The notes under the pieces: model-generated
Seen by the model: the letters and a program-made list of their open reading frames with translations, nothing else
What the model was told of the DNA's origin: nothing
Databases searched by the model: none
Part shown: positions 28,847 to 31,959 of the stretch, piece after piece
How positions within the stretch are numbered: the first letter of the stretch is position 1
How the letters are laid out: every line of letters starts with the position of its first letter
Assembly: GCF_007748175.1 (NCBI RefSeq)
Contig: NZ_CP037422.1
Coordinates: 6,030,334-6,094,333 of the forward strand
Direction of reading: 5' to 3'
DNA: 64,000 bases
DNA from: Gimesia aquarii
Lineage (GTDB): Bacteria; Planctomycetota; Planctomycetia; Planctomycetales; Planctomycetaceae
Translations under genes and position numbers: made by a program

Positions 28847-29473
28847 TTAAAAACGTTGTCGCCCCTGTAACGCATCAGATAACATCTCTTTGTTAGCAAA
28901 CTCTAGCACACTCCCAGAAGCAATCCCCCGCGCCAATCTGGTAATTTCGACATTTTCGTTTTCTAAAAGATTTGATATGTATAAAGCCGTCCCATCCCCT
29001 TCGAGTGTCGGGTTTGTCGCCATGATGATCTCGCTGACACCATCCTGTTTCACACGACGAACGAGCGCATCGATTGTCAGTTTTTCAGGCCCCACTCCCT
29101 CCAAAGGGGAAATCCGTCCTTGTAGAACGTGATAAACTCCCTGAAAGGAACTGGTTGCTTCCAGAGAGACCACATCGCGTGGTTGCTCTACAACACAAAC
29201 CAGCGTTTTATCCCGTCGAGTATCCGCACAGATGCTACAGACTTCATTTTCGGTAAGGTTGTAACAAACGGTGCAGGGCCGTACGGACTGTTTGACAGCC
29301 ATGATTGCATCAGCCAACTGCCGCGCATTTCCTTCGGATATCGATAAAATATAATGAGCGAGTCGCTCTGCAGATTTGCGACCAATCCCAGGCAGAGTGG
29401 CAAATTGATCGATCAATTGTCCCACACTGGAACCATAAGGATGAGACTGACTCTCTCTTCCACGTATCGACAT
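28847..29473 (-). CDS. recR: Recombination mediator RecR
   Basis: 208 residues from the ATG at 29473, matching the family's usual ~200; a longer open frame reaches 29587 but would overlap ebfC. It has the helix-hairpin-helix ([20 protein letters not shown]), the Cys4 zinc site ([16 protein letters not shown]), and the Toprim domain ([15 protein letters not shown] ... [16 protein letters not shown]). RecR loads RecA on gapped DNA with RecF/RecO. It is the last gene of the conserved dnaX-ebfC-recR operon. Confidence 0.95.
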
Positions 29474-29552
29474 AACACTGAATCTTTTACAACTGAAGAA
29501 TCGCGAACTCTTATCTGGAGATCGATGAAAACGATCGCCAGTTAGAAACGTA

Positions 29553-29906
29553 CTAAGCATTCGGATTGAATTTTGCCAATGCCTCATCCAATCCGGGAAT
29601 ATTCATTCCTCCCGTCAGTTGAGCCATTTCTTCGGCGGCCCCTTCACGAGCCTTTTCCAATGCCTGATTGGTTGCCGCGGTCAAAAGGTCTTCGAGCATC
29701 TCCTTATCATCACTGTCGAGTAGAGTCTGATCTATCTTGTAACTCAGAATTTTCTGCTGACCATTGGCTTCGACGTTAACCATTCCACCCCCGGCGGAAC
29801 CTTCAAATCGAAGCTTTCCCAATTTCTCCTGCATTTCCTGCATGCGCCCCTGCATCTCTGAAAATTGTTTCATCATGCCGGCGATATTTCCCAGTCCTTT
29901 GAACAT
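29553..29906 (-). CDS. ebfC: YbaB/EbfC family nucleoid-associated protein
   Basis: 117-119 residues of the YbaB/EbfC family: N-terminal amphipathic helix ([39 protein letters not shown]), central beta hairpin, and a helical C-terminus. These proteins form dimers that bind DNA. A GTG at 29912 overlaps the dnaX stop (GTGA), which would couple translation; an ATG at 29906 is also well placed behind GAGGA. It lies between dnaX and recR as in most bacteria. Confidence 0.94.
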
Positions 29907-29908
29907 GG

Positions 29909-31681
29909 TCACGAATCCTCTTTTTCATCTTCTGTTTGCTTATTTAAAACACTGACCCGCACACTTTTCGCATTGAAAACCGCAAGTGCTTCCTGCAAAA
30001 ACTCGTCTGAGTCAGGCGATAAATCGCGCTGCTCAACCCGTCTTTTTGTCAGCGTTGAATTGCTTTCTTTCTCTGCTGTCGTTTCTGACGAGGACTCCTG
30101 TAATCGAATTTTGATTCGTTCCCCAGTCAGTTTTTCCAGCGATCCTTCGAGTTTGACCATGATTTCCGGTCGCTCGCAGTATTGCTTTGAAAAATTATAG
30201 CTCTTAGAGAATTGTAAATCCAGTTGTTTCGGCCCAGAAATTGCTATTGACTCCACTCCCTTCAAAGAGTCTTTTAGCAGATCTTCATTGATTTCAATGA
30301 GTTGCGTTAACAATAAACTTTCTACTCCTGCGCGAAATGGGATCAATTCAGCTGTCGAAGTAGCACTTTCAATTGAATTTTGTGTTACAACCGAATTTAT
30401 TTCACTTTTTTTTTCAATTTTTTTTTGAGTAGGAGGCTCATTCTGAGTAGATGGATTCACCTCAGGGGTAGAAACAGCGTTTTGCGTGCTGCCTTTAGGC
30501 TGTGAGGCAGGTCGCTGGGTGGGAGGCAGAGCAGGAATCTGGACCCCATTTGTCAACAGGGAACACAACTGATCCAGATCTTCCAGCAGCGAAATTCGAA
30601 TCAATGCCAATTCAACCAGTGCTCGTCCATGACTGGCACGAAACATTTTATTGCGTGCTTCATTCAGAATTTCAAAGGCAGCCAGACAGGTCTGAATTCC
30701 CCAAATCTGAGCCTGTTTCTGTAAACTGCTGCGGTTAATTTCAGAGATTGCCAATAAGGTTACCTGATCGGCACCAGTTGCAACCACTGATAAATCTCTT
30801 AGATAGTTCAGTAATTGATCGACGAATTCATTGAGCTGCACACCAGAATTCAAAGCCGCCTCAAACAGGGCAAGGGCCACATCTCGCTTGCGGTCAATCA
30901 AAGCGTCAATCAACTCAATCAACCGCTCATCACTGGCTGTTCCCAAGATGCGGTGCACACTTTCTGCTGTCAGATGGGAATCGCCAAACGAGAGTAATTG
31001 ATCAAAAATGGATTGGCTGTCACGCATCGAACCGCCGGCACGACGTGCTACAAGCTGGATCGCACTCTCATCCACTTCGACCTGTTCCAATTCTGCAATC
31101 TGCTTCAAGCGGTTGCAGATGCTGGTCTCTTCAATGTATCCAAAATCGAACCGCTGGCAACGAGACAAAATGGTATCTGGCAGCTTATTCGGTTCTGTCG
31201 TGCAGAAAATAAACTTCACATTAGGAGGGGGCTCTTCAAGAGTCTTCAATAAGGCATTAAACGCCTCTTTGGTTAACATGTGAACTTCGTCGATGATATA
31301 AATCTTATACTGAGATCGCATCGACTTTACGTTTACATTGGCCCTCAATGACCGGATATCATCAATCCCGCGGTTCGAGGCACCATCGATTTCTAAAACA
31401 TCAATATCACTACCCACGGAAATATTCTGGCAGACTTCACACTCTCCACACGGAATGCCCTCTTGTGAATTCGGGCAATTCAAAGCTTTGGCCAGTATGC
31501 GCGCCATGGATGTCTTACCCACTCCACGTGCGCCGGTAAACAGGTACGCATGCGCCACTCGATCAGCACAAATTGCATTTTGAAGGGCTTTGGCGACCAT
31601 TTCCTGTCCGACGACTTCCGAGAAATTCTGAGGACGGAACCGACGGGCCAACACCGTATACTGTATCGATTTATTAGACAT
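29909..31681 (-). CDS. dnaX: DNA polymerase III subunit tau (and probably gamma)
   Basis: 590 residues. AAA+ clamp loader with Walker A (GARGVGKTSMA), a four-Cys zinc site (CPNSQEGIPCGECEVC), Walker B (IIDEVHMLT), sensor 1, and SRC (LSRCQRFDF). After domain III a low-complexity linker (about 385-430) leads to the tau-specific C-terminus. The linker contains two A9 runs in the coding strand (codons ~419-426). Slippage by one base in either direction at either run meets a stop within a few codons, predicting a gamma-like product of about 422-427 residues, close to known gamma lengths. The gene starts the dnaX-ebfC-recR operon. Confidence 0.96.
   Translation of the reverse strand: MSNKSIQYTVLARRFRPQNFSEVVGQEMVAKALQNAICADRVAHAYLFTGARGVGKTSMARILAKALNCPNSQEGIPCGECEVCQNISVGSDIDVLEIDGASNRGIDDIRSLRANVNVKSMRSQYKIYIIDEVHMLTKEAFNALLKTLEEPPPNVKFIFCTTEPNKLPDTILSRCQRFDFGYIEETSICNRLKQIAELEQVEVDESAIQLVARRAGGSMRDSQSIFDQLLSFGDSHLTAESVHRILGTASDERLIELIDALIDRKRDVALALFEAALNSGVQLNEFVDQLLNYLRDLSVVATGADQVTLLAISEINRSSLQKQAQIWGIQTCLAAFEILNEARNKMFRASHGRALVELALIRISLLEDLDQLCSLLTNGVQIPALPPTQRPASQPKGSTQNAVSTPEVNPSTQNEPPTQKKIEKKSEINSVVTQNSIESATSTAELIPFRAGVESLLLTQLIEINEDLLKDSLKGVESIAISGPKQLDLQFSKSYNFSKQYCERPEIMVKLEGSLEKLTGERIKIRLQESSSETTAEKESNSTLTKRRVEQRDLSPDSDEFLQEALAVFNAKSVRVSVLNKQTEDEKEDS
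30406..30426 (-). promoter_or_regulatory. Putative dnaX frameshift/slippage site (two A9 runs)
   Basis: Coding strand: A9 (complement of 30418-30426), TTG, A9 (complement of 30406-30414), GTG. In the -1 frame the first run is followed by AAT TGA and the second by AAG TGA. In the +1 frame both lead to GTG AAA TAA. This arrangement is what a slippage site needs to make gamma and tau from one gene, as known for dnaX of Thermus (A9 transcriptional slippage) and E. coli (ribosomal frameshift). Confidence 0.65.
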
Positions 31682-31844: not shown

Positions 31845-31959
31845 GGGGCGAAAAGCTGCCTCCTCGTACACCTGGAATAAACCATTGTGGGCTGCTTCGG
31901 TTAAGATCTGACCCGGTCAACGACTACCCCACCATACTCGGAGACAGCTTTTCGCCCCC
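31845..31959 (-). ncRNA. ffs: Bacterial signal recognition particle RNA (4.5S-type)
   Basis: About 115 nt on the minus strand. The ends pair in a 19-bp stem (GGGGCGAAAAGCTG.CTCC with its complement, one G-U). The apical domain IV carries the SRP signature GGGTCAG ... GAAGCAGCCC (31888-31914). Downstream on the minus strand follows TTTTTTATTT, so the stem also acts as terminator. It lies directly upstream of dnaX, as scRNA does in Bacillus. The apical loop is UUAACC-like instead of the common GGAA. Confidence 0.93.

Follow-up and report, generated by a model that had tools for sequence, protein, structure and literature searches.

A probable Thermus-type transcriptional slippage site for gamma in planctomycete dnaX genes, present as twin A9 runs in Gimesia aquarii

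The window analysed here, a 64,000-nt stretch of the Gimesia aquarii genome (contig NZ_CP037422.1), carries on its minus strand the gene cluster dnaX-ybaB-recR, a common gene order. The first gene, dnaX (29909..31681), encodes DNA polymerase III gamma/tau; its ORF yields 590 aa when read unslipped, the full-length tau, and the protein matches NCBIfam NF004046 over residues 8-572 as well as TIGR02397, with Pfam ATPase, lid and domain III assignments reaching residue 369. The GTG start of ybaB (29553..29912, minus strand; Pfam PF02575) overlaps the dnaX stop, and given this overlap the translation of ybaB is possibly coupled to that of tau. The cluster ends with recR (28847..29587, minus strand, start uncertain; Pfam Toprim_4 and RecR_HhH). 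Just upstream of dnaX, at 31850-31950 of the window and also on the minus strand, lies a probable small SRP RNA gene: the candidate scores 31.7 bits against Rfam RF00169 (E 3.7e-5), under the gathering score of 40; it comes with a promoter-like site (32019-31992) and is followed by a run of T's.

The feature of concern lies in the linker after domain III, where the coding strand of dnaX holds two runs of nine adenines. Run 1 (30418..30426, minus strand) follows ACT and is read as CAA AAA AAA ATT, residues 419-422; run 2 (30406..30414) is read as GAA AAA AAA AGT, residues 423-426, and is followed by GAA ATA AAT; a TTG spacer (30415..30417) separates the two. An earlier note on this DNA, made from the letters and their reading frames, had described precisely this arrangement, together with a TGA after each run and a shared TAA beyond them, and both descriptions are exact: the -1 frame is closed past run 1 by TGA at 30414..30416 and past run 2 by TGA at 30402..30404, the +1 frame is closed past either run by TAA at 30397..30399, and all three stops fall within 21 nt of run 1. 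Simulated slips gave the products that the note had predicted for single-nucleotide events, 422-427 residues: one nucleotide gained at run 1 yields a DnaX of 422 aa, one gained at run 2 yields 426 aa and one lost at either run yields 427 aa, whilst two-nucleotide shifts at the runs yield 421-428 aa. The gamma of E. coli has 431 aa. The note's broader statement that escape is closed in every frame holds for single slips, but the frame, and with it the 590 aa product, is regained when the two runs slip in opposite directions (-1 then +1, or +2 then -2).

Within the window itself an A9 tract is not improbable: dinucleotide shuffles contain 4.5 A9/T9 tracts on average, and the twin runs are the sole such tracts in the 64 kb. 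A pattern search of the whole genome found no other two separate A9 tracts this close together, and a sample of 22 tracts showed that other A9 tracts of the genome also fall in ORFs, so that such a tract is tolerated in other genes, a point against the slippage reading. Two tracts of this same genome (L342, tracts at 1500 and 6031) lie four bases ahead of the ends of two ORFs, of 121 and 120 codons, that are separated by about 4.5 kb and may represent a repeated gene whose C-terminus is slippery. The case that the twin run in dnaX exceeds chance is thus made by its relatives and not by the window.

The search for dnaX in these relatives covered genomes of the genus (17), the family (120), the class (149) and the phylum (157), with named GTDB contigs added (including Gemmata sp. 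IIL30, Aporhodopirellula aestuarii and an uncultured Schlesneria), and about 190 class genomes supplied the gene. Beyond residue 370, 87 of the 99 family genes and 71 of the 91 other class genes have a longest A-run of 9 or 10; among the same genes no linker run has a length of 8, and none has 11 or more. Where the run is missing, the longest linker run is A3-A7 (A7 in two genes), and the linker differs altogether in sequence. The run persists in dnaX genes of up to 73% GC, and all 172 A9/T9 tracts of the class dnaX genes sit after residue 370, with none before it; the flanking DNA, 303 kb in total, contains a single one. All of the runs encode two lysines, but synonymous codons resampled under the same proteins give an A9 in only about 17 genes against the 158 observed, and codon shuffling of the linker gives one in about one gene. 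Synonymous resampling was used in place of the AAA:AAG ratio within the run, which was dropped as evidence as an A-run forces AAA by definition. The codon phase of the run (0, 1 or 2), considered as proof that the site is blind to frame, was likewise given little weight, as a single substitution turns a phase-1 A10 into a phase-2 A9. A single A9/A10 site of this kind is widespread in the class and probably ancestral there.

The stops behind the run are kept as well. Both non-zero frames are stopped within 30 nt in 131 of the 158 run-bearing class genes, where codon shuffling gives about 16. This holds in the family (75/87; shuffles mean 12.5, maximum 20) and in the other class genes (56/71; shuffles mean 4.0, maximum 8). 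Counts over related sequences are not counts of independent events, a concern lessened by taking one gene per cluster: amongst representatives clustered at 80% identity, both frames are stopped in 73 of 94, against 7.4 (sd 2.4). Close pairs of stops, whose starts lie 4 or 5 nt apart and therefore in different frames, occur in 46 genes where 7.8 are expected, and near-stop enrichment is equal in the +1 and -1 frames. Closure of the +1 frame is needed if mRNAs gain or lose A's, but is needless for a -1 ribosomal shift, which favours slippage by the polymerase. A-runs and stops are kept in near and distant relatives whilst the linker's amino acids vary, as found when the relatives were compared at the place which the earlier note had proposed for alignment. 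That note had argued for selection over chance and had laid stress on the duplication of the tract; its argument for selection is borne out by the relatives, but the best evidence comes from the single run kept across the class, the duplication being a genus-level elaboration and not the strongest support. Compared across the class in this way, dnaX sequences support well the view that a truncated, gamma-like product has been selected for.

The twin run is confined to the window's genus, where it is kept in 12 of 13 distinct dnaX genes. Run 1 is A9 in all genus members read, and the TTG spacer is kept, except in L009 and its near-copy L058; the clade to which the window belongs carries A9+A9, and most other members A9+A10. 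In L009/L058 run 2 has been lost (A6), and run 1 has become A10 with a TGA directly behind it. The genus tree places this pair inside the genus with support of 89/78, which is not strong, and on this placement the twin run is ancestral in the genus. Codons ~418-438 show the best synonymous-site conservation of dnaX in the genus, the rest of the linker varying by species. Behind the twin run, a stretch of about 11 codons (residues 428-438; window 30365-30396, minus strand) is also unusually conserved at synonymous sites, a pattern partly explained by reserve stops in both frames. The changes in the runs look like adjustments of slip rate. Since the twin run appears ancestral and the lineage that lost run 2 has a run 1 grown from A9 to A10, it is conceivable, at somewhat less than even odds, that the two runs form a tandem module whose number and lengths are tuned jointly to hold a set tau:gamma ratio. 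If true, no earlier example of a doubled slippage site in a cellular gene is known to us.

Taken together, the twin A9 is best read as a Thermus-type programmed transcriptional slippage site that makes gamma from a single dnaX gene, to which we assign a probability of about 0.77. RNA polymerase would slip on the A-run, leaving some mRNAs with one or more A's extra or missing; translation of a slipped mRNA would pass into another frame and meet a stop within a few codons, releasing a gamma-like DnaX of 421-428 residues with the ATPase domains and domain III but lacking the C-terminal part of tau. Unslipped mRNAs, or those with a net change of three, would give full-length tau of 590 aa. Such a gamma would presumably be stable and put to use by the cell, and the second run, added in the genus, would probably adjust its share.

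The precedent is the dnaX of T. thermophilus, in which the polymerase slips on an A9 with stops in both frames (PMC1088944; PMC5009743), a finding that both of these papers credit to Larsen et al. 2000. As in Thermus, one dnaX frame encodes tau, the sense strand has an A9 towards the end of the gene, both other frames have stops nearby and gamma is the expected short product. Unlike in Thermus, there are two tandem tracts (in one genus), run length is 9 or 10, the hosts are mostly mesophilic planctomycetes, and the mechanism is here proposed from sequence comparison. The contrasting route is that of E. coli, where gamma arises by a -1 ribosomal shift at A_AAA_AAG, stimulated by an upstream Shine-Dalgarno and a downstream stem-loop (PMC3711429). 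The predicted planctomycete product is similar in size to the E. coli gamma, would be stopped one codon past the slip site and would end in the same linker, but the ribosomal stimulators are absent and the +1 frame is closed too. No A_AAA_AAG occurs in the window, whose runs are followed by TT and GT, and mixtures of T, G and C follow the run across the class. Upstream of the run, Shine-Dalgarno-like elements show no excess in the class (14/158, against 18.6, sd 3.7, in shuffled sequence), and none precedes run 1 in the window. No downstream stem-loop was detected in the class genes, where two stretches behind the run had mean z values of -0.11 and -0.34, nor any upstream structure; over both sides mean z ranges from -0.1 to -0.3. 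No common fold emerged in the genus, where the RNAalifold consensus is -0.5 kcal/mol; a hairpin in which the ATTGAA spacer would pair with a TTCAAT further downstream was considered there and rejected, on this consensus and on the broken pairing in L010 and L011.

The absence of stimulators, the closure of both frames and the limit at A9/A10 together point to polymerase slippage rather than a -1 ribosomal frameshift. A ribosomal origin of gamma at the same site, by a -1 shift or by sliding on AAA AAA with the mRNA unchanged, is nevertheless a serious alternative, albeit an unlikely one: A_AAA_AAA is present within every A9/A10 run, the gamma of E. coli arises from a -1 shift located in the same linker (PMC5009743; PMC3711429) and ribosomes are able to slide on A-runs (PMC4363877). 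Against it, seven A's and a single closed frame would suffice for a -1 shift, yet hardly any runs of 7-8 occur and +1 stops are enriched equally; and sliding, as studied in vitro with the E. coli system, is robust at A11 but slight at A9 and A10 (PMC4363877), so that runs which stop at A10 favour the polymerase over the ribosome. That the selected effect is instead on the genes behind, with early termination lowering ybaB-recR expression by uncoupling the genes or admitting Rho, is very improbable. The overlap of the ybaB start with the dnaX stop is in its favour, as are the ~490 nt that a gamma stop would leave untranslated ahead of the ybaB start, but for this purpose a stop anywhere would serve; the position after domain III in every lineage would stay unexplained, and it is at this same place that known gamma proteins end.

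Two further explanations dispense with slippage during expression, and both are barely credible. Selection for a lysine-rich linker or Lys-Lys motif, with the A-run as a by-product, would accommodate the two lysines encoded by every run, but would not account for the wide gap between the observed A9 tracts and those expected from synonymous codons under the same proteins, nor for the near absence of runs of 7-8; it offers no protein-level reason for stops in both silent frames, and most run-less relatives lack a lysine pair in the linker. Homopolymers of about this length are often mutable, as phase variation would require if changes in genomic tract length switched dnaX on and off; however, the frame is open in all listed run-bearing class members and the length is constantly 9 or 10. 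Moreover, tau is essential in E. coli, according to the title of Blinkova 1993 as cited in PMC11253446.

Programmed slippage, if it operates here, has not been retained everywhere. Some 12-22% of the class is without the run, so that gamma made via the slip site is not indispensable, and on a tree of 187 class members (a quick tree, of limited support) the run-less state requires 18 changes, at least 12 of them on well supported branches. These losses agree with E. coli, which lives without gamma, although cells without it are UV-sensitive (PMC11253446); whether gamma plays a real role was long a matter of argument (PMC11253446; PMC5009743). The independent losses of the run offer natural comparisons in which to ask whether gamma is absent or made otherwise. 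One such other route is that of Caulobacter, where gamma is produced by partial proteolysis of tau (PMC5009743): as proposed here, tau and gamma come from a single gene, but the route is post-translational and a slippery tract is needless. By analogy, proteolysis is a possible source of gamma in run-less members of the class.

The Thermus-type kind of site is already known; what is new, to our knowledge, is the class-wide evidence and the doubled slippery tract in dnaX. The earlier note's belief that the site was undescribed in planctomycetes is in line with full-text searches of mainly open papers, which gave no account of it. The maintenance of 9-10 A's and of closure in both frames over a bacterial class, in genes of up to 73% GC, is evidence that the making of gamma has been selected. 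Slippage that truncates a product has been considered hard to judge comparatively, because no extended new frame is opened that could be put to a test (Baranov et al. 2005; PMC1088944). All-or-nothing run length, combined with closure of two frames, provides a workable comparative test that is usable on other genes.

Related designs occur elsewhere. In the split dnaX genes reported by GeneTack (Chlorobi and others), tau itself needs a frame change (PMC3711429); like the present genes, they have an A-run (of 7-10) at this position of dnaX, but their zero frame ends after the run with tau lying in another frame, whereas here tau is the zero frame, and its opening for 590 aa excludes the split type for the window. 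One dnaX from another class of the phylum (L311, genome G134; run at codon 384) looks like the split type, requiring slippage for tau, or else like a homopolymer error of metagenome assembly: its zero frame ends a few codons past an A10 (KKKSSAS*) and the C-terminal part of tau goes on in the -1 frame. No second case was seen in 2 genomes of its order. Outside the class the run is uncommon (6/41 genes), and an A9/A10 at the same place in dnaX was seen in L128 (Verrucomicrobia, codon 447), L071 (Ignavibacteria, codon 399), L099 and L127 (Phycisphaerae, codons 403 and 387) and L113 (codon 425); judged by these sequences, the design may be spread among bacteria more widely than has been described.
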